Assembly: GCA_947475165.1 (NCBI GenBank)
Contig: CANJLD010000001.1
Span: forward strand, 186,001-250,000
From: Bacteroidota bacterium
GTDB taxonomy: Bacteria; Bacteroidota; Bacteroidia; Chitinophagales; LD1
Direction: 5' to 3'
DNA length: 64,000 nucleotides
This document shows, in pieces, positions 479 to 51,284 of the stretch (position 1 is its first letter; every line of letters starts with the position of its first letter). Below the pieces are notes generated by a model, which searched no databases, was not told where the DNA came from, and saw nothing but the letters and a program-made list of their open reading frames with translations. A program made the translations under genes and the position numbers.

Positions 479-1723
479 ATGAAACTTCTTCAATCTTCAA
501 TTTTCAATTTTCAATCTTCAATCAGGATTTTTGCTTCTGTTGTCTGTTGTCTATCGTGTGTTGTCTCTTCAGCACAAACTGATTCCATTTTCCGCATTGG
601 TTTAATTCTTCCTTTTCAGGCAAGCAGTACCGTAGATAGATTAGAAGCCTACTCGAACGCGCACGATTTATTTACAGCGCACAAAATTCATTTGAATGAA
701 GATGCTGTTACTTCGCTCGATTTTTATCAGGGCGTTTTAGAAGCACTAAGCGAATCGAAGGACAGTGTTAAAATTGAATTAAGCATTTATGATAACTGGA
801 ACAGCGATTCTGTTACTGCAGAGATTCTCAAGAATCCGGAACTAAAAAAACTACACGTCATTATAGGTAGTGTTTCTACTTCATCAGCCAAGTTGGTGGC
901 CGATTACTGCAAGCAGAATAAAATCGTAAACATTCAACCTTTTACGCCTTCCAAAAGTTTAACTGTAGAAAATCCTTACCACTTGAAGCTTGCACCTACT
1001 ATCGATGCCCATGCCGATGCCATGTTCAATTCCATAGTTGATTCATTTCCTGCTGCCAACATTATTATTTACACACCTGATGCAGAAAAAAGTTTAAGTG
1101 TAGCTAAACGTTTCGATTCGCTTTTCTGCACTTACAATAAAACTGCTGTTCAAAAATTTACCGTTGCTTTTCTAAATACTAAAGACATGCTGCTGAACGG
1201 AAAGAAAACCACTGCGGTTGAGCAATTGAAAACAGATAAGCAAAACATCCTAATCATCACTTCTTTCGATGAATCGTTTGTAAATGGAAATCTGCGTTTA
1301 CTGCACGAACAATTAGCGAAAGATTCTACCATTGTTGTTTACGGAATGCCTACCTGGCTAAACGGAGATATTCTTCGACTGGATTATGTAAACGATTTTA
1401 ATACGAGAATCTCCGATGCGTTTAATCCTGATTCACCACATTCCGAAACAATTGTGTTTAATCATTTCTACACCGATAATTTTGGTACAGAGCCAAGCCG
1501 TTATTCTTATTTAGGATTTGATGTAATGAATTTTGTGTTCTACAATTTAAAGAATTACGGAAACGATTTCCTCAATTCTATTGCCACACAACATTACACC
1601 GGTGCGGTTTACAAATTCGATATTGCAAAAAACACTAAAGACAAAGCTACGCTGAACTACTATGAGAACCGCGCAGTAAATGTTTTTATGGTAGAAAATT
1701 ATTTGCTGAAGCGCGTTTATTGA
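479..1723 (+). CDS. Periplasmic-binding-protein-like exported protein
   Basis: A 414-residue protein with an N-terminal export signal, a hydrophobic core (IFASVVCCLSCVV) and a likely cleavage site after SSA. The mature part begins with IGLILPF. It continues with alternating strand/helix segments such as VIIGSVSTSSAKLVADYC and IVNIQPFTPSKSL, which resemble the type I periplasmic-binding fold of amino-acid ABC transporter receptors. Bacteroidota relatives often sit beside guaA and carry a LysM domain; none is evident here. No transporter genes are adjacent, so a ligand cannot be named. The signal-peptide codons contain five copies of the heptamer TTCAATY (489-523), described separately. Confidence 0.7.
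   Translation: MKLLQSSIFNFQSSIRIFASVVCCLSCVVSSAQTDSIFRIGLILPFQASSTVDRLEAYSNAHDLFTAHKIHLNEDAVTSLDFYQGVLEALSESKDSVKIELSIYDNWNSDSVTAEILKNPELKKLHVIIGSVSTSSAKLVADYCKQNKIVNIQPFTPSKSLTVENPYHLKLAPTIDAHADAMFNSIVDSFPAANIIIYTPDAEKSLSVAKRFDSLFCTYNKTAVQKFTVAFLNTKDMLLNGKKTTAVEQLKTDKQNILIITSFDESFVNGNLRLLHEQLAKDSTIVVYGMPTWLNGDILRLDYVNDFNTRISDAFNPDSPHSETIVFNHFYTDNFGTEPSRYSYLGFDVMNFVFYNLKNYGNDFLNSIATQHYTGAVYKFDIAKNTKDKATLNYYENRAVNVFMVENYLLKRVY
489..523 (+). repeat. Heptanucleotide repeat (TTCAATY)x5 in a signal-peptide coding region
   Basis: Five tandem 7-nt units, TTCAATC or TTCAATT, directly after the start of the binding-protein-like gene. They encode the LQSSIFNFQSSIR part of the signal peptide. Seven is not a multiple of three, so gain or loss of one unit shifts the frame. 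The same heptamer recurs in the porin gene at 15363-15397. Confidence 0.85.
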
Positions 1724-8272: not shown

Positions 8273-8399
8273 TCAAATATTTTGAGGTGCCAAAATAGCG
8301 GATTAGTTGATGGAGAGAAGTGCGCGCGCAACCAGCCGCGCAACCCTCTAACTCCCTAAAGGGAGAACCGCAGCGCACATCCTTCTCCCAAGTTTAGGC

Positions 8400-8770
8400 T
8401 CCACCGTTGGCATTTATCTTCCACCGCTGGCGTTTGTGTTTCCACCGTTGGGGTTTTGGTTTCCACCGATGGGGTTCGCGGTTCCACCGATGGCATTTTC
8501 GTTTCCACCGCTCGTGTTCGCGATTCCACCACTGGCGTTTTCGTTTCCACCGATGGGGTTCGCGTTTCCACCGATGGCATTTTCGTTTCCACCGCTCGTG
8601 TTCGCGATTCCACCGCTGGGGTTTTCGTTTCCACCAATGGGGTTCGCGGTTCCACCGATGGCATTTTCGTTTCCACCGCTCGTGTTCGCGATTCCACCAC
8701 TGGCGTTTTCGTTTCCACCGATGGGGTTCGCGGTTCCACCGCTGGCATTTGTGTTTCCACCGTTCTTTAG
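8400..8770. repeat. 21-bp tandem array 1 (18 units, 84-bp higher-order period)
   Basis: Eighteen units each begin TCCACC, at 8400, 8420 and then every 21 bases to 8756. The constant core is followed by a variable 15-nt part. From 8462 a block of four different units (GATGGGGTTCGCG, GATGGCATTTTCG, GCTCGTGTTCGCG, CTGGNGTTTTCG types) repeats three times as an 84-bp higher-order unit. All six frames are open over most of it because 21 is a multiple of 3. On the minus strand it would read as heptapeptides such as VETKTPV and VESRTRA, but no credible start context is present. I read it as non-coding DNA. There are no unique spacers, so it is not CRISPR. Confidence 0.9.
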
Positions 8771-13497: not shown

Positions 13498-15435
13498 TTA
13501 TTCAAAAAACCTCCACTTAACCCCTACCTTAAAAGAGATATCGGGAGCCGGATAAGCATAAAGCGATTGGTAACCCTTAGGCCCGAACGAGCCACTGATA
13601 TTATCTACCTTCAAGAACACGCGCACCGTTTTAATTTTCAGGTTCAAAAAGAAATCGAGCACCGGATACGATTTGCTGGTGGCATAAGCCGGGTAGAAAG
13701 ACGCGAGGAAAGGGTCGTAATAAGGCGCGTTGTTTTGCAGGTTGTAGCGCAAATCGAACCCCACGGCAAACCACAGAAACTTTTTAAACACTCTGCGCTC
13801 GTAATAAATACTGTGTTTGGTGACCAGCATAGGGAAGGTGCGCTTTACTACACCCTCGTTAGGCGCAGCGGTAAACCAGATATCGTTATCTAAATGAAAA
13901 CCAAACCAGCCGTTGCGGTTGGCAAAGTGCGCCACCAGAATATTCTCTACACCGGTGGTTATGTACGCACTGCCGGCATAAGGATAAACCGGCAGATGGT
14001 CCACCACATAATAATTTACATCGGCCGTTAAACCGTAAGGTATGTTCTGATACTTACCACCCACCACAAACTGCTTGGTCTTTGGCAAATCAACATGCCA
14101 GTCCACCGGATGCGAAGTGTAACGCTCAAACATATAAGGCGCCTCCTTTAACTGGTAAGTAACATTGCCGCTGAACATTCCGAACTTGCCAAAATCGTAA
14201 CCCACATAGCCATCGGCAAGCAAATCGTTTTGGTTCCAGCCGTAAGGAAAATACTTTACACTGCCCCGGTAAAACAAATGCGAACCCGATGCCGCATTAC
14301 TGCGGAAAGTTCCGCCCACATATAAATTGCTGGTATTGCTTTTAAACCGGTTCTGCTCCAGCAGATAATAGTCAAACCCCGCTTCGGCTTCGGCAATAAA
14401 ATTCTTTTCAACGTAGGCAGAATCGGAATTGAGTTTGCGCGCGTGGTAATCGAGCAAGAGCGAGTTGCCAATCTTCACATAATTCATATCGTTAAACACG
14501 GAATCGGCTAAATAGAAATCCTGATAATAATTCGGGTCAGGGTCGCGGTCGCGGAATTTATTTTTGTTGCTCTCCACATTAAACTGGTGCGATATGCGGA
14601 AGATAGGCATGAGCATTTGCGGTCGCGTGCTATCTACTCTTGCACCAAAATATTTCTTGCCAATGTTGTAAGAGCTCTTTAAATAAAAATCAATGTTCAC
14701 GTATTTGTTTTCGGCAATCCTTTCGCTTAATCCATCCAAAGCCACCGGTACCAGTTTTTTCTGGAAGAAAGAAGAATCGAATGGGTTCGTAAGCACGCCT
14801 CCGTTCTCGTGCACCTTAAACGAATTAAAAATTAAATCGGCCTGCACATTCCAGTGCTTGTTCTTGGAGTTAAAAATACCGTAGAGGTTAAAACTGTTGT
14901 CGAGTGCTTTCTGGTTCAGGTAAGTACCGGTAGAAGAAATTCTGCGGAAATCAACTCCGTAATAAATAATACCCTTGTGCTGGTTGGCAAACTTGCCCTG
15001 AAACATCTGCTCCTGATTTAAACCAATCAGAATACTCAGCTCGGTATAAGGACGAATTACCTGATAATACTTCACCGAGTCTTTGGTGTACCGGTAAAGG
15101 TCAAACTGATTATAGCCCAAATTAAAACCGGCTGACCGGTTAGCCGAAAACACCAAAGGATGAGCAGCCGTGCCGGTGTTGCCAGCGTTGGCATATTCCA
15201 CACCATTGCGCTGCGCCTCGTTGTAATACTGAATACCAAAAATGGAAGAATCAATTACATAGTGCGTCTCCGGTTCGGCATTCAGAAACCAGGTATCGTT
15301 TTTAGTAGAGGGAACCATGCGCTTGGTAATAAGCGACTTTACGGAATCAACGGGGCCGGCAATTGAAAATTGAAAATTGAAAATTGAAAATTGAAAAACC
15401 AGTAAGAGCCCAAGAACTTGTTTAATGCTCATCAA
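13498..15435 (-). CDS. Putative outer-membrane porin (Porin_10-type)
   Basis: A 645-residue beta-barrel protein with an N-terminal signal peptide. The mature part has many alternating amphipathic strands, frequent aromatic girdle residues and a C-terminus ending in an aromatic residue (KVGVKWRFFE), all typical of outer-membrane barrels. The sequence resembles the Bacteroidota 'putative porin' family (Porin_10). The downstream position after lpxK and purine nucleoside phosphorylase is typical of that family. The signal peptide (LVFQFSIFNFQFSIAG) is encoded by five copies of a heptanucleotide, so expression may be phase variable. The substrate is unknown. Confidence 0.82.
   Translation of the reverse strand: MMSIKQVLGLLLVFQFSIFNFQFSIAGPVDSVKSLITKRMVPSTKNDTWFLNAEPETHYVIDSSIFGIQYYNEAQRNGVEYANAGNTGTAAHPLVFSANRSAGFNLGYNQFDLYRYTKDSVKYYQVIRPYTELSILIGLNQEQMFQGKFANQHKGIIYYGVDFRRISSTGTYLNQKALDNSFNLYGIFNSKNKHWNVQADLIFNSFKVHENGGVLTNPFDSSFFQKKLVPVALDGLSERIAENKYVNIDFYLKSSYNIGKKYFGARVDSTRPQMLMPIFRISHQFNVESNKNKFRDRDPDPNYYQDFYLADSVFNDMNYVKIGNSLLLDYHARKLNSDSAYVEKNFIAEAEAGFDYYLLEQNRFKSNTSNLYVGGTFRSNAASGSHLFYRGSVKYFPYGWNQNDLLADGYVGYDFGKFGMFSGNVTYQLKEAPYMFERYTSHPVDWHVDLPKTKQFVVGGKYQNIPYGLTADVNYYVVDHLPVYPYAGSAYITTGVENILVAHFANRNGWFGFHLDNDIWFTAAPNEGVVKRTFPMLVTKHSIYYERRVFKKFLWFAVGFDLRYNLQNNAPYYDPFLASFYPAYATSKSYPVLDFFLNLKIKTVRVFLKVDNISGSFGPKGYQSLYAYPAPDISFKVGVKWRFFE
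15363..15397 (-). repeat. Heptanucleotide repeat (TTTTCAA)x5 in the porin signal peptide
   Basis: Five perfect tandem copies of TTGAAAA on the plus strand (TTTTCAA in the coding sense). They encode the hydrophobic FQFSIFNFQFSI stretch. A change of one unit would shift the reading frame of the porin. The unit is a rotation of the heptamer in the signal peptide at 489-523. Confidence 0.9.
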
Positions 15436-15459
15436 ATATTCAATCTTCAGTTTTAAATA

Positions 15460-16284
15460 TTAAATACTTTTCAGCAGTTCTGTAATCAACAGCGTCATCT
15501 TCGGCTCAGCCTCTGCCGCTTTCTTCAGCACAAATTCGTGCGTCACTTTATCAGCCTTCTCAAACGGATAACCGATATCGCTGATAACCGAAATAGCGAA
15601 TACATCCATGCCGCCATGTCGCGCCACTATTACTTCGGGCACTGTGCTCATGCCCACCGCATCTGCGCCAATCACGTGCAGCATTTTATATTCTGCCGGA
15701 GTTTCGAAAGTAGGTCCCTGCAAACCGGCATATACACCGGTGTGGACCTCAATATCGTTATCCAGTGCAACCTGCAATCCTTTCTTCACCAGTTCCTGGC
15801 AGTAAGCATTATTCATATTCGGAAACCGTGGACCGAGTTCTTCATAATTCTTTCCGCGCAAAGGATGCTCTGCATGCAGATTGATATGGTCGGTAATAAT
15901 CATCAAGTCGCCCACTTCAAAATCCGCATTCATTCCACCGCTTGCATTTGAAACCAAAAGTGTTTCCACGCCCAGTGCTTTCATCACCCTCACCGGAAAG
16001 GTTACTTCTTCCATTGAATAACCTTCGTAGTAGTGAAAGCGTCCGCTCATAGCCACAATATTTTTTCCGCCCAGCTCACCAAAAATCAAACTTCCCCCAT
16101 GCCCCTTTACAGTTGACACCGGAAAATTCGGAATCTCCGTGTAAGGAATCTTTACGTGGTTCGAAATTTCCTTAGTCAGGTTTCCAAGGCCTGAGCCCAG
16201 TATAACTCCGTGTTTATAATCGCGGTCAATCTTTCCTTTTAAAAAATTGCTTGTCTCTTTAATCTTCTCTAACAGATTGGCCAT
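15460..16284 (-). CDS. Purine-nucleoside phosphorylase
   Basis: A 274-residue enzyme that phosphorolyses inosine or guanosine to the free base and ribose 1-phosphate in purine salvage. Family 2 (trimeric) motifs are visible: GSGLGNL near residue 31, KGHGGSLIFG near 60, SGRFHYYEGYSMEEVTFPVR near 80, SNASGGMN near 113 and GPTFETPAEY near 190. A base-binding stretch DAVGMSTVPEVIVARH follows. It is transcribed with lpxK upstream (23-base gap) and the porin downstream (24-base gap). Confidence 0.93.
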   Translation of the reverse strand: MANLLEKIKETSNFLKGKIDRDYKHGVILGSGLGNLTKEISNHVKIPYTEIPNFPVSTVKGHGGSLIFGELGGKNIVAMSGRFHYYEGYSMEEVTFPVRVMKALGVETLLVSNASGGMNADFEVGDLMIITDHINLHAEHPLRGKNYEELGPRFPNMNNAYCQELVKKGLQVALDNDIEVHTGVYAGLQGPTFETPAEYKMLHVIGADAVGMSTVPEVIVARHGGMDVFAISVISDIGYPFEKADKVTHEFVLKKAAEAEPKMTLLITELLKSI

Positions 16285-26400: not shown

Positions 26401-26756
26401 TTCCCTTTCCAAAAACTTTATTTGGCTACTATTAGTCATTTTCATGGCTTTCCCCTCATTTTACCCCATTCCGGTCTTCTTCCCATCGGTTCCGGTCTTC
26501 TCCCCAACCATTCCCGCCTTCTCCCTAACCGTTCCCGGCTTCTCCCCATCCATTCCCGCCTTCTCCCCATCCATTCCCGCCTTCTCCCCATCAGTTCCCG
26601 CCTTCTCCCCAACCATTCCCGCCTTCTGCCCAACCGTTCCCGCCTTCTCCCCATCCATTCCGGCCTTCTCCCCAACAGTTCCTTCCTTACCAAAATCTGC
26701 CTTTAAGTAGCTGTTTGCGTTTCGTATCGGCATCCCTTTCCAAAAATTTTATTCGG
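26401..26756. repeat. 25-nt direct repeats flanking tandem array 2
   Basis: Near-identical 25-mers (22 of 25 matching) lie at 26401-26425 and 26732-26756, both containing CCCTTTCCAAAAA. They bracket array 2 and about 40-55 bases on each side of it. This looks like a duplicated boundary of an inserted or expanded segment. The remainder of 26367-26841 shows no gene. Confidence 0.7.
26468..26690. repeat. 21-bp tandem array 2 (10 full units and a partial one)
   Basis: Units of [A/G]TTCC-[C/G]G-N-CTTCTCCCCA-[A/T]C start at 26468 and every 21 bases to 26678. They vary mainly at the first base, after TTCC, and in the last four bases (ATCC, AACC, ATCA, AACA). Minus-strand reading would give heptapeptides such as MDGEKAG and TVGQKAG; the other frames are open too. 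There are no spacers, no adjacent cas genes, and no convincing start codon. I treat it as non-coding. Confidence 0.9.
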
Positions 26757-36276: not shown

Positions 36277-39081
36277 TTACTGTTTTACAAACTTCGTATT
36301 AAAGTGTCCTTTATCGGTAGTAAAATTCAGCATGTAAATTCCCGAAGCCAGATTATTGAGCCTAACCATGTGTTGGTGCGGTCCTCTGTTCTGCATTTCG
36401 TTTGTTACATCTATTACTTTTCTTCCGGTTAAATCAATTACCGAAATTTGCGTGAAAGTAGGGTCGTTTAATTCGTAAGCAACATTCAGCACATCGTTAG
36501 CCGGATTAGGCTGAACGGAGAAACTCATGAGGGATGAAATATTATTGATACCTGCGCACACCACCGTATATTGGTCAGAAGTATCAACACAACCGTTTTG
36601 AGAAACCACTACTGTATGATATTCTCCAACATCGCCACAGGTAACCGTATCTAATTGTGTAGTTGTAAACTCAACCGAGTAAACGCCATTAGGCTGTGCT
36701 TGAAACAACCATTGGTAAGTAGCATTTGAAGGACTTGCCTGCAATAAGGCATAACCGTTTGCACTTCCCAATTCGGCAATAGTTGCATTTGGAGTTACGT
36801 TTACAAAAACCGTTGGCGGATTTAAAGAAATACCGGGACAACTGTTTTGAGTTACTGTTACATTATACGTACCGGTAGAATCAACTGCAATAGTTTGTGT
36901 GGTTTCTCCATTGCTCCACAAATAAGCCGAATAACCTGCCCCGGCATCTAAGGTGATAGTTTGACCCGAACAAATATTCTGCGTGCCTGCCGGTGATATA
37001 GCAGGAGTTGGCAGCGATGTTACACTTACTACAATCGGATTTGCCGAAGCTCCATCACAACCATTCTGCGTAACAGTTACACTATAACTTCCGGCCGATG
37101 ATACAGAAGTAGTTTGTGTATGGTCGCCATTGCTCCACGAATAAGCAGAGTAACCGGTACCGGCATCTAAAGTAATACTGCTACCGCTGCAAATAGTTTG
37201 GTTCCCCGCTGGGGTTGGAGATGGTGTAGGAAGGGTATTAATAGTAACTATTGTACTTGCAGTAGCACTGCATGCGTTATTATCTACAACAGTAACCGTA
37301 TAAGTATTTGACGAGCTAACATCAATATTTTGACCTGATTGATTGGTACTCCATTCGTAAGAGTTATGCCCAGCACCGGCATCTAAAGTAATTACATCAC
37401 CGGTGCAACCCGATGGATTATTAGGAGTAAGATTTACAGTAACCGGAAAATTGCCAATGTTTACAGTAGCTGAAGCTGTTCCTGTACAAGCCCCCTGCGA
37501 AACAGTTATTGTATAAGTGCCCCCGGTACCCGTAGTTACTGTTTGGTTCGTTCCCCCGCTATTATTCCAGGCGTAAGACGTATAACCCGTACCGACATCT
37601 AATACAGTGCTTCCGCCCTGGCATAAATCTAAACCGTTATTAGCTGTAATAACTGGCGAAAGACTGCTGCCCGAAACCGTAACGGTAATTGAATTTGAAG
37701 TTCCGCTGCAACTGCCTTGTGTCACGGTGCAATCATAACTGCCACCTGCTGTTACCACTTTGGTTTGTCCGGTTCCTCCACCGCTCCATGCATAAGCAAT
37801 ATAGCCCGCACCGGCATCAAGCGTTACGCTTCCACCAGTGCAAAAACTTACCGGCCCGTTGGCTGTAATAGTTGGTGTTGGGTTACCAACAGTTACCGTA
37901 GCTGTATTAGAAGTTCCGCTGCAGCCGTTTAGCGTTACAGTGCAATCATAACTGCCTCCGGCAGTTACCACTTTGGTTTGTCCGGTTCCGCCACCGCTCC
38001 AGGCGTAAGTAGTATAACCGGCACCGGCATCAAGTGTTACGCTTCCGCCACTGCAAAAACTTACCGGTCCGTTAGCTGTAACGGTTGGCGTTGGATTATT
38101 ATTTAAAGTAACGGCAACTGTGTTGGTAGTTCCGGTGCAGCCGTTTTGTGTAACCGTACAATTGTAATTGCCGGTTGCATTGTAAGTAGCTGTTTGGCTG
38201 GTTCCTCCACCATTGCTCCAACTGTAAGCCGAGAATCCGCTGCCCGCATTCAAGGTTACACTGCCTCCGGTGCAAAAGGTAGTTGGCCCGTTTGCCGTTG
38301 CAGTTGCCGAAACGGTAGTAGTAGTAATTGTTTTAGTAGCCGTAGCCGATGCACAGTTAGCATACACGGTAACGGTATAAGTGCCGGCACCGGCAGTAAT
38401 AGTAGAGGTAAGTGCACCGGTGCTCCATTGGTAAGCATAATAGTTTCCTCCGCTTAAACCTAAGGTGGTGGTTGCCCCTGAGCAAACTGCACTGCTGCCT
38501 GTAATAGTTGGCACAGGTGCTGTGCCCGATGTATGCGCGGTAAGACCAGGTGAAAGCGTATCAACCGGTACGCAGATGCCGCCCGCTTGTTTTACACGCA
38601 GGTAATATTTCAAATTCATTACCGAATCAATATTCAGGTTGCTCAGTGTAATTGGAAAAATCCCTACAGTCACGTTTACATCGGCATATACTATAATGTT
38701 GTATTCGCCCGGTGCATCGTAGGTAATTCCCTGAATACGAACGCAACCGGTAGCATTGCCGTTCACCTTATCCTGACTATCGTTACTGCGCCAGCACATA
38801 CCGCAAGGCGAGTTATCTATGTGCAGAATTTTAATCCAGTTTAAGGTATAACCCTGCGCTGTTGGCGGTGTATGAAAATTAATAACCGTATCGAACGGCT
38901 GACCGATAATCATGCACGGCAAGGCGGTGTCTGGCGGATAAAACCCCAGTTGAGTTAAGCCGGGTGTAGGCGTACAAACACCGGAACCCGATGCCTGCGC
39001 ACAATGTTGTGCGTTAATAGTTGAGGAAAATAGAAGCGTGGTAATAAGAACTACCGTCAGGTGGTAAATCTTCTTGTTCAT
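36277..39081 (-). CDS. Secreted Ig-like repeat protein with T9SS type A sorting domain
   Basis: About 934 residues from the ATG at 39081, which begins a good signal peptide (MNKKIYHLTVVLITTLLFSSTINAQ) and lies just after a -7 promoter match. The longer frame to 39192 starts upstream of that promoter. After an N-terminal domain there are eight tandem repeats of about 80-90 residues, each with C-x-G-x-x-x-T-L-D-A-G-x-G-Y and a Y-x-W-S core (GPVSFCSGGSVTLDAGAGY type). They resemble Ig-like adhesin domains. The end is a type A sorting domain (VQPNPANDVLNVAYEL ... LASGIYMLNFTTDKGHFNTKF). A surface adhesin role is likely. Confidence 0.85.
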   Translation of the reverse strand: MNKKIYHLTVVLITTLLFSSTINAQHCAQASGSGVCTPTPGLTQLGFYPPDTALPCMIIGQPFDTVINFHTPPTAQGYTLNWIKILHIDNSPCGMCWRSNDSQDKVNGNATGCVRIQGITYDAPGEYNIIVYADVNVTVGIFPITLSNLNIDSVMNLKYYLRVKQAGGICVPVDTLSPGLTAHTSGTAPVPTITGSSAVCSGATTTLGLSGGNYYAYQWSTGALTSTITAGAGTYTVTVYANCASATATKTITTTTVSATATANGPTTFCTGGSVTLNAGSGFSAYSWSNGGGTSQTATYNATGNYNCTVTQNGCTGTTNTVAVTLNNNPTPTVTANGPVSFCSGGSVTLDAGAGYTTYAWSGGGTGQTKVVTAGGSYDCTVTLNGCSGTSNTATVTVGNPTPTITANGPVSFCTGGSVTLDAGAGYIAYAWSGGGTGQTKVVTAGGSYDCTVTQGSCSGTSNSITVTVSGSSLSPVITANNGLDLCQGGSTVLDVGTGYTSYAWNNSGGTNQTVTTGTGGTYTITVSQGACTGTASATVNIGNFPVTVNLTPNNPSGCTGDVITLDAGAGHNSYEWSTNQSGQNIDVSSSNTYTVTVVDNNACSATASTIVTINTLPTPSPTPAGNQTICSGSSITLDAGTGYSAYSWSNGDHTQTTSVSSAGSYSVTVTQNGCDGASANPIVVSVTSLPTPAISPAGTQNICSGQTITLDAGAGYSAYLWSNGETTQTIAVDSTGTYNVTVTQNSCPGISLNPPTVFVNVTPNATIAELGSANGYALLQASPSNATYQWLFQAQPNGVYSVEFTTTQLDTVTCGDVGEYHTVVVSQNGCVDTSDQYTVVCAGINNISSLMSFSVQPNPANDVLNVAYELNDPTFTQISVIDLTGRKVIDVTNEMQNRGPHQHMVRLNNLASGIYMLNFTTDKGHFNTKFVKQ

Positions 39082-39415: not shown

Positions 39416-41938
39416 TTAATTACACTTCAACAACAAACCACCGGCATTACCCGGGCGTGAGTGCAGAATTTTTGAGGTTACGGGCTTCTTAAACTTAATG
39501 TCTTTCTTATCGCCTTCTGCGCCACATTCATATACATCTATGCGCAAAGTATTCAACCCGTAGCGACCGGTGTTCCAAGCTTTTGCAATTAAGTAATTCT
39601 GCTCACCGGGTATAAGAGTTACGGTGCGCTTAAAGGCTCCGTTTTCTTTCAGCCGTATCATATCGCGGTTTACAATTACTTCATCGTTAAAAATAATAGT
39701 TACCGAATCGTTGTCCTGCTCGCCATCGTCATAAATTAAAAGTGTAAGCTCGCAATTGCTTACGGTAGCGTTATGCTCGTAGTGTACCGAGTCGTTACCA
39801 AGGGCAAGAGCGGCATCCAGTTTCTGTGGCGGTGCAAAGTTAGCCAAGGTGGCATCTTCTTTTATAATTACGCTGTAGGTGCAAACCTGAAAGTTACCGG
39901 CAGCATCGTAGGCTTTAAAAATAAACGGGTGCACACCAAGCGGTAGAAAGCAACCGTCTTTGGTGCCGGCCATCATTACCATACTATCTACACCCACGTT
40001 ATCGGTAGCCACCGGTGTTTTGTAATGATAAATTAAACCCTTGCGGTTTGGCGGAAGCAGAATAAGCGTATCGCCCGGGCAGGCAATGCGTGGAGCTTGA
40101 ACATCTTTACGCGTTTTAATTTTTGCAATGTGCTCGCGCGCTGCTGTTTCTTTGGCTGCTACAATGGCATCGGCTTTGGCATTTTCTAAACGTTCTTTTT
40201 CTACTGCATCTTTTGCTATGCGTTCTTGCTCCTCTTGTGCCTTTGCTTTGGCAAGGGCATTGGCTTTGGCTTTATCTAAAAGCTCTTTCTCTGCCAACAC
40301 GTTTGTCAGTCGCTCTTTTTCTGCAATGGCTTTTTCTTTTTCCAGTTTCTCCCTTTCTATCGCAGCCTTTGCTTCGGCAAGCGCATCGGCTTTAACTTTA
40401 TCTAAAAGCTGTTTCTCTTCCAGCATTTTTGCAAACCGCTCATTTTCTGCATTGGCTTTTTCTTTTTCAAGCCGGTATTTTTCTGCTTCGGCTTTTGCAT
40501 CGGCTTTAGCTTTATCTAAGCGTTCTTTTTCGGCTGCTGTTTTTTCCCGGGCAATGCGTTCTCTTTCGGCAGTTTCTTTGGCGGGGTCTTTAGCTTCGGC
40601 TACCGGGCTTATCAGCAAATTGGGTTCATAAACTACTGCAGGGCTTTTTCTTTCTTCCTCTTTAATATCGTTTACGTGTGTCTTCGGTTCTTCTTTAACC
40701 GGTGCGGCATCGGCTGTTACAGTTATTTTAAAACTGCATTGCACTTTATTACCCGCTGCATCGGTTGCCTGATATTTTACCTGCGTAACACCCATAGGAA
40801 ACACCGCACCGGATGGCAGCCCTTCCAGCAATTCTAATTTTAAGTTGGGGCAATTATCGGTAACCGACAGGCCGGGGTAATCAACCTCCACACCGGTAGT
40901 GTTGGCGTGTGCCTTAGCCACAGCATCAGTAATACAATTGAACACCGGTGGCTCGTTATCAATTACCGTAACCTGAAAACTATCCACCATTTTTTTATCG
41001 CCAACCACCGCTTCGTACACCAAACTATTTCTGCCTAAACCAAAACGCGAACCGCTGGGCAAACCGGTTAGCTGTTTCATAACCACCGAGCCGCAACCCA
41101 TAGTTACTTCCGGTTCCTTGAAGAAAGCAATAGCCGAGCAGGTTCCGTTATCGGTATGTTTTTCTATGCTCTTCGGAAAGCTCACTTTCATTTCCTCCGT
41201 AATCGCCTTACCGGTTTCATCTTTAAACAGCGAATTAATTTCGGCAAACGATAAACCGCGGCTGTAAATGCGCAAATCGTCTAAGCAACCGTTGAAATAC
41301 CTTTTGCCGGCAACAATATCGCGCCCTATTTCAAGTGCAAAATCGTTTGGCTGAAAAGGTTTGTTCTTCGGTGCCTGACAAATCAACTTACCATCCTGAT
41401 ACACCTGCACAAAATTTTCTTCGTACGTAATGGCAATAAAATACCATTGGTTATACTCCATAGGGTGGTTGTTATACAACTTATCCTGAAATGAGAAATC
41501 GCTGCTAAGCGAAATGGTGCTGTACGAATCGCCAAAGTTTCTTTTAATCTGAAAACAATACTGCGGTTTAATATCTGTTCCGTTTTCAATACCGGGCTTG
41601 GCAAGCAAAATCAAGTTCAAATCGTTCGAAGAATTATTTCCTTTTTCCGGTTTAACCCACGCAGTAACGGTAAGCGAATTAGCCGGTGCTTTTAAAGAAA
41701 CTGAATTAGGTGCAGATACATAACAACCGGTGCCTATAAACCGAAATGCCCCGCAAGGATTCCCGAATCTATCGGCAGCAGGGGCTACTGCGCCATAAAT
41801 CTGTCCGTCATTTTTATTGCCGCTTTCGTCAGCCGCATTGTTGTTAAACGGATAGTAAGCAGACAACCCCCCGGTGGGCAACTGCGCCTGAACACAACTG
41901 AATAACAGCATAAAGCACACAGCAGCAATAATTCTCAT
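39416..41938 (-). CDS. Secreted LamG - HYR - coiled-coil - HYR-like protein
   Basis: About 840 residues from the ATG at 41938 (MRIIAAVCFMLLFSCVQAQ signal peptide); the longer frame adds a non-signal extension. Residues about 20-250 form a LamG/concanavalin-like domain (LSAYYPFNNNAADESG, WVKPEKGN, YQDGKLICQ). Two HYR-type beta domains follow (DNEPPVFNCITDAVAKA and VTDNCPNLKLELLEGLPSGAVFPMGVTQVKYQATDAAGN). A Lys/Glu/Ala-rich coiled coil of about 160 residues (EKERLDKAKADAKAEAEK type) comes next, then another HYR-like domain (APRIACPGDTLILLPPN). No sorting domain is evident at the C-terminus. A binding or structural surface role is likely. Confidence 0.75.
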   Translation of the reverse strand: MRIIAAVCFMLLFSCVQAQLPTGGLSAYYPFNNNAADESGNKNDGQIYGAVAPAADRFGNPCGAFRFIGTGCYVSAPNSVSLKAPANSLTVTAWVKPEKGNNSSNDLNLILLAKPGIENGTDIKPQYCFQIKRNFGDSYSTISLSSDFSFQDKLYNNHPMEYNQWYFIAITYEENFVQVYQDGKLICQAPKNKPFQPNDFALEIGRDIVAGKRYFNGCLDDLRIYSRGLSFAEINSLFKDETGKAITEEMKVSFPKSIEKHTDNGTCSAIAFFKEPEVTMGCGSVVMKQLTGLPSGSRFGLGRNSLVYEAVVGDKKMVDSFQVTVIDNEPPVFNCITDAVAKAHANTTGVEVDYPGLSVTDNCPNLKLELLEGLPSGAVFPMGVTQVKYQATDAAGNKVQCSFKITVTADAAPVKEEPKTHVNDIKEEERKSPAVVYEPNLLISPVAEAKDPAKETAERERIAREKTAAEKERLDKAKADAKAEAEKYRLEKEKANAENERFAKMLEEKQLLDKVKADALAEAKAAIEREKLEKEKAIAEKERLTNVLAEKELLDKAKANALAKAKAQEEQERIAKDAVEKERLENAKADAIVAAKETAAREHIAKIKTRKDVQAPRIACPGDTLILLPPNRKGLIYHYKTPVATDNVGVDSMVMMAGTKDGCFLPLGVHPFIFKAYDAAGNFQVCTYSVIIKEDATLANFAPPQKLDAALALGNDSVHYEHNATVSNCELTLLIYDDGEQDNDSVTIIFNDEVIVNRDMIRLKENGAFKRTVTLIPGEQNYLIAKAWNTGRYGLNTLRIDVYECGAEGDKKDIKFKKPVTSKILHSRPGNAGGLLLKCN

Positions 41939-51095: not shown

Positions 51096-51284
51096 CATGT
51101 AGTTTGCCTCTTGCTTCATGTAGGTTGGCTCTTGCTTCATGTAGTTTGCCTCTTGTGCCATGTAGGTTGGCTCTTGCTTTATGTAGTTTGCCTCTTGTGC
51201 CATGTAGGTTGGCTCTTGTTTCATGTAATTTGCCTCTTGCTGCATGTAGGTTGGCTCTTGCTTCATGTAGTTTGCCTCTTTCAA
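51096..51284. repeat. 21-bp tandem array 3 (9 units, 42-bp alternating period)
   Basis: Units starting at (C)ATGTAG recur every 21 bases from 51096 to 51264. They alternate strictly between TTTGCCTCTTG and GTTGGCTCTTG cores, giving a 42-bp higher-order period. The last four bases vary (CTTC, TGCC, CTTT, TTTC, CTGC). Minus-strand reading would give heptapeptides such as MKQEPTY and MAQEANY. All frames are open, and none has a credible gene context. Confidence 0.9.

Follow-up and report, generated by a model that had tools for sequence, protein, structure and literature searches.

A heptanucleotide array within a porin signal peptide

Five tandem copies of TTTTCAA lie inside the signal peptide of a porin gene in this Bacteroidota genome, which raises the question of whether the array is a dedicated on/off switch for that one gene, as an earlier note had suggested in calling the porin possibly phase-variable, or one instance of something that acts across the genome. 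The window, meaning the whole 64,000-nucleotide stretch of DNA analysed, holds the following features that bear on this question.

13498 to 15432, minus strand: Porin_10 (PF14121) gene, with an ATG start at 15432, in an enclosing open reading frame at 13498-15435 (minus strand)
15358 to 15432, minus strand: porin signal peptide MSIKQVLGLLLVFQFSIFNFQFSIA, predicted by reading the sequence, with cleavage judged by eye to fall after SIA
15361 to 15397, minus strand: heptamer array (TTTTCAA)x5.3 (TRF: period 7, 5.3 copies, 100% matches)
15435 to 15465, minus strand: degenerate 7-periodic leader arm, complementary to the porin array at 25/31 positions and ending just before the start codon
15460 to 16284, minus strand: PNP_UDP_1 gene (purine nucleoside phosphorylase family), directly upstream of the porin
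479 to 1723, plus strand: periplasmic binding protein-like gene (Peripla_BP_6, E=7e-7, slightly short of the curated cut-off)
487 to 523, plus strand: a second heptamer array, TCTTCAA/TTTTCAA x5.3, in the signal peptide of the gene at 479 to 1723
536 to 566, plus strand: degenerate heptamer array of the TTGTCTG type, in that same signal peptide

The porin assignment is firm, with the Porin_10 profile matching residues 56-644, most of the protein, above the curated cut-off (E=2.5e-77, 261 bits). Translation from the ATG at 15432 gives the N-terminus MSIKQVLGLLLVFQFSIFNFQFSIAGPVDS; the array spans codons 12-24 and encodes VFQFSIFNFQFSI, which makes up the C-terminal half of the hydrophobic stretch of the signal peptide. 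Together with TRF and the profile match, a pattern search (three exact overlapping minus-strand matches to a 21-base array pattern and none in 100 shuffles) confirmed that five in-frame copies lie in the signal peptide. A start codon downstream of the repeat, which the earlier note had named as fatal to its reading, is unlikely because the next Met (codon 39) would give no signal peptide, and array-free orthologs in congeners place the signal peptide identically.

The heptamer cycle itself, TTT TCA ATT TTC AAT TTT CAA, is stop-free and gives FSIFNFQ in all three frames, and the break in reading frame after a unit change falls only downstream of the array. A stop-free heptamer array is easily tolerated as coding filler because it yields the same seven-residue cycle whichever frame is read.

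Period-7 arrays are abundant across the genome and fall mostly within genes

Counting near-perfect tandem arrays by period over 864 kb of this genome revealed 40 arrays of period 7, compared with counts of 0-4 at any of the remaining periods between 5 and 13 (a period of 14 in this spectrum is a harmonic of 7), while 60-bp block shuffles of the first 464 kb gave no period-7 arrays at the same threshold. Tandem 7-nt units here occur beyond chance and are over-represented against other unit lengths, as expected of long heptanucleotide simple sequence repeats, and the density of ~46 per Mb extrapolates from the 864 kb to roughly 180 arrays in the 3.88-Mb genome. Such arrays are common in the signal peptides of this genome, contrary to the earlier view that a heptamer there is unusual. 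In sequence beyond the recognised arrays the lag-7 signal was weak, and with so small an excess we rejected a global lag-7 homogenisation of all unconstrained DNA.

Nearly all of these arrays are genic, with 37 of the 40 lying inside open reading frames of at least 150 aa. Gene starts are strongly favoured, as 20 of the 37 intragenic arrays fall in the first ~46 codons against the 11% expected from the share of coding sequence (p about 1e-10), and the other 17 lie far from starts. The N-terminal arrays sit mostly in signal peptides of lipoproteins, outer-membrane proteins and cell-wall enzymes (hosts include LptC-like, PorP/SprF, BatD, Omp28, CHU_C, GH3, NlpC/P60 and EnvC/M23), and the internal ones in linkers and loops (E2 acyltransferase, MutL, YidC, PheT, GalT, glycosyltransferases and an HI0933-like flavoprotein) or in type IX sorting tails. 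Pfam matches support genuine genes around the arrays, for example in PheT, YidC, MutL, E2, LptC and PorP/SprF. Strand choice follows position, with coding-strand pyrimidine fractions of 0.70-0.89 in most h-region arrays and mostly 0.11-0.5 in n-region and linker arrays; T-rich units thereby lie in hydrophobic regions (LLSVVCCLLSV, or VFQFSIFNFQFSI in the porin) and A-rich units mostly in n-regions and linkers (EIRNQKSEIRN, KFKVQSSKFKV). The linker array of the mismatch-repair gene mutL (this genome, G000, C2:188507-190354) is (GAAATCA)x4.4, and none of the orthologs of this gene in the genus has its frame broken inside a single contig. In the congener G009 an in-frame (TTTTCAA)x3 lies midway through an open reading frame (C9:190023-193043) that was identified by eye as leucyl-tRNA synthetase-like.

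The unit vocabulary is restricted, with 26 distinct canonical heptamers among the 40 arrays against 37.3 expected, and the commonest, AAATCAG, accounts for eight arrays where simulations never exceeded six. A number of units turn up again in other congeners and in further families of the order. Selection for stop-free units encoding benign peptides explains part of this restriction, though perhaps not all of it.

Longer repeats also came to light. The window has three long arrays, at 8393-8762, 26466-26676 and 51096-51280, built of units of 21 bp (also 42/84 bp); their unit lengths are multiples of 7 with no obvious inner 7-nt periodicity, and the first two are crossed in several frames by open reading frames encoding 7-residue repeats. 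Tandem duplications of about two copies each occur at 37693-38098 (213 bp) and 40239-40468 (126 bp). A member of a distant family of the same order (G046) carries much longer heptamer arrays, including TATACTC over at least 133 bp, up to the edge of the stretch examined.

Array sites are shared across the genus with mostly different units

Orthologs of six array genes (porin, SpoU-family methyltransferase, PheT, EnvC, E2 and GalT) were compared over the genus, with one genome per species, at sites picked because this genome (G000) bears arrays there; the relatives are mostly draft assemblies, and their array density was gauged from samples of tens of kb. On that basis G001, G004, G009, G010, G015, G016 and G017 rank with G000 as array-rich, and G002, G003, G005, G006, G011, G013 and G014 as array-poor. 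A contig scan for a second genome of the species gave one other MAG (LJ_bin-3609), apparently the same genome as G017. All six families have an array at a common site in at least two species, and the units mostly differ. The porin signal peptide alone holds arrays in six species with five canonical units, namely AAAATTG (G000), AATATTC (G016), AATAGAC (G004 and G015), AATGGTC (G010) and AAAATGG (G009), with two TTTTCAA copies in G007, a degenerate array in G017, and ordinary signal peptides at this site in array-poor congeners. In G011 the porin signal peptide holds a CCTCCCCCTTCGGGGGAGG palindrome and no heptamer array, and the site therefore accepts other repeats too.

The remaining families follow the same pattern. 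At the SpoU-family site we found AAATCAG (G000 and G017), AAATACG (G001) and AAAATTG (G009), with no array in the others, and in the PheT loop AAATCAG (G000), AAAGTTC (G001, degenerate in G017) and AAGATTG (G016). EnvC has separate n-region and h-region arrays whose unit differs between nearly all array-rich species, and E2 and GalT likewise share array sites with mostly different units. This distribution, as read from the orthologous sequences, suggests either that homogenisation keeps replacing the units of arrays at lasting sites or that tolerant sites are recolonised very often.

The PheT loop further revealed that replacement is length-neutral, as its anchor-to-anchor span is 120 nt both in the array-bearing species and in the array-free G009, G010 and G003. 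PheT is taken to be an essential gene. Single-unit slippage always breaks the frame, and arrays in essential genes therefore cannot have grown stepwise through viable intermediates. Because single-unit growth would need such frameshifted intermediates and the length is unchanged, we infer that the PheT array arose by length-neutral copying or by multi-unit events.

Frame retention, natural slippage and the prospect of porin switching

Across the six families, array-bearing alleles numbered 6 for the porin, 4 for SpoU, 5 for PheT, 7 for EnvC, 6 for E2 and 3 for GalT, and 30 of these 31 are in frame (24 of 25 once the six query alleles of this genome are set aside). The exception is the SpoU-family gene of G017: measured against G000, its array with flanks is short by exactly one AAATCAG unit (7 nt), and the coding sequence breaks into two frames at the array. 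This is direct evidence, from a single draft assembly, that one-unit slippage does occur naturally in the lineage, and it shows why arrays in needed genes stay in frame.

These data bear on whether the porin array is a contingency locus, selected because strand slippage in 7-nt units turns translation off and on. The frame arithmetic behind that proposal works, as porin variants translated in silico reach a stop after 28 codons with 4 units and after 30 with 6, and recover an open frame with 2 or 8, bearing out that a slip of one unit shifts the frame and that three restore it. Outer-membrane proteins are classic targets of such switching, the slipped SpoU-family gene is a natural case of one-unit frame loss in a relative, and heptanucleotide phase variation exists in Haemophilus influenzae hmwA (PMC8262952), although with 11-24 copies there against five here. 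What did not stand is the idea that the array singles out the porin: with some 180 similar arrays expected genome-wide, the same type of array occurs in dozens of further genes, and rather than concentrating in dispensable surface or antigen genes these repeats reach PheT, YidC, MutL, E2, GalT and SpoU. The off state of PheT or YidC should be lethal. All array-bearing porin alleles across the genus are in frame with no out-of-frame allele among them, in line with the 30 of 31 overall, and in the congeners G004 and G015 the array has identical length with decayed, imperfect units. The genome-wide survey thus weakened a porin-specific contingency locus to an improbable reading; switching of the porin is possible but unsupported, and its array is no longer special.

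Other explanations for the arrays

Slightly less probable still, and doubtful on these data, is the proposal that the arrays are functional nucleic-acid sites, such as binding sites or hairpins at translation initiation, as has been proposed for TAACTGA in Beggiatoaceae (PMC4679880). The strong enrichment at gene starts would fit such a role, as would the leader arm complementary to the signal-peptide array, which is present in G000, G016 and G010, but this complementarity is absent in G004, G015, G017, G009 and G007, nearly half of the intragenic arrays lie far from any start, and units differ between species at a common site. With complementarity in only 3 of 8 species and a porin leader that folds no better than its shuffles (z-score -0.14), we rejected an RNA hairpin over the porin start, and we regard the leader arm as more of the array material, lying in a leader free of constraint, rather than a demonstrated switch. 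Several gene-boundary arrays elsewhere in this genome are inverted pairs resembling imperfect hairpins, with an A-rich arm, a short loop and a T-rich arm.

An origin of the arrays as a dispersed element, mobile or MITE/REP-like, that inserts into genes is very improbable, for although they are dispersed, share a vocabulary and include some intergenic copies in inverted pairs, there are many different units with no common element beyond the heptamer, and a defined insertion adding length with a target duplication is not what the PheT site shows, its 120-nt span being identical with and without a clean array.

Comparison with known heptanucleotide systems

Heptanucleotide repeats as such are known; it is the intragenic, site-stable and unit-labile form that is unusual, and our search of the open-access literature turned up no account of heptamer arrays that lie within genes, keep the frame and switch units at conserved sites. 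As relayed in PMC4679880 and PMC4692102, Mrazek et al. (2007) reported that heptanucleotides outnumber other long simple repeats in most of the bacterial genomes they surveyed and proposed 7 nt as a polymerase contact length that favours slippage. The period-7 excess seen here resembles the repeats of that relayed account and departs from them in that nearly all arrays are intragenic and in frame, sites are conserved across the genus with changing units, and essential genes are hit. In that account, repeats in coding regions mostly had unit lengths divisible by three (PMC4679880).

TAACTGA direct repeats, known from Beggiatoaceae, some Cyanobacteria and a few Bacteroidetes, lie mainly between genes and adjoin gene starts (PMC4679880). 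Like our arrays they are heptamers often placed beside start codons, with related strains differing by indels in 7-nt steps, whereas the TAACTGA system has one fixed heptamer placed mostly upstream of starts and this genome has 26 units, with 37 of 40 arrays in open reading frames. The GGGAATC/GGGGATT heptamers of Xanthomonas and Nostoc share the genome-wide excess and the variation in length and sequence between relatives, but are G-rich, quadruplex-forming and over-represented in intergenic DNA, where ours are A/T-rich and intragenic (PMC4692102). The (ATCTTTC)n repeat of hmwA is also linked to a surface protein gene, but lies in the promoter and grades expression, in contrast to an array within a signal peptide (PMC8262952). 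Tandem repeats of archaeal Borg elements similarly evolve rapidly and add residues to proteins (PMC9879509), but Borgs are extrachromosomal, and our arrays are chromosomal with a unit of 7, which is not divisible by 3. A tree-of-life survey reports that Bacteroidota are dense in STRs, both genome-wide and within genes, and does not discuss heptamers.

A probable genome-wide rewriting process and its implications

Taken with the array survey and the genus comparison, the porin array is probably one instance of a genome-wide, period-7-specific process that rewrites units while leaving sites in place, rather than a dedicated switch. Such a lineage-wide process would create heptanucleotide tandem arrays and keep homogenising them, such that each site remains an array while its unit changes with time. 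Arrays would persist wherever the constraint on protein or regulation is slight, with the T-rich strand tolerated in signal-peptide h-regions, the A-rich strand in n-regions, and either strand in linkers, surface loops, type IX sorting domains, leaders and spacers. One-unit slippage would break the frame and selection would remove the slipped alleles in needed genes, and any on/off switching of the porin would be a by-product, not the purpose. The molecular step is most likely one in which the polymerase misaligns by 7 nt and then realigns; this would copy a neighbouring unit and leave length unchanged. Alternatively, arrays may be copied or converted from other arrays, and the restricted unit vocabulary fits poorly with purely local homogenisation. 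Y-family polymerases were considered as a discriminator and rejected, as they are present in all 18 genus genomes and do not separate array-rich from array-poor species.

More tentatively, and with odds that we place well below those of the general process, there may be an active, lineage-specific replication or repair activity with a length-neutral 7-nt offset that continually rewrites weakly constrained segments and signal peptides. In practice, short signal-peptide repeats in genomes of this kind should not be called phase-variable without population data. The lineage also lends itself to work on a long-standing puzzle, the preference for a repeat length of 7 in many bacteria, and if the 7-nt-offset activity is real, unrelated proteins of one organism would share filler peptides such as EIRNQKSEIRNQKSE, SSKFKVQSSKFKV and FSIFNFQ.
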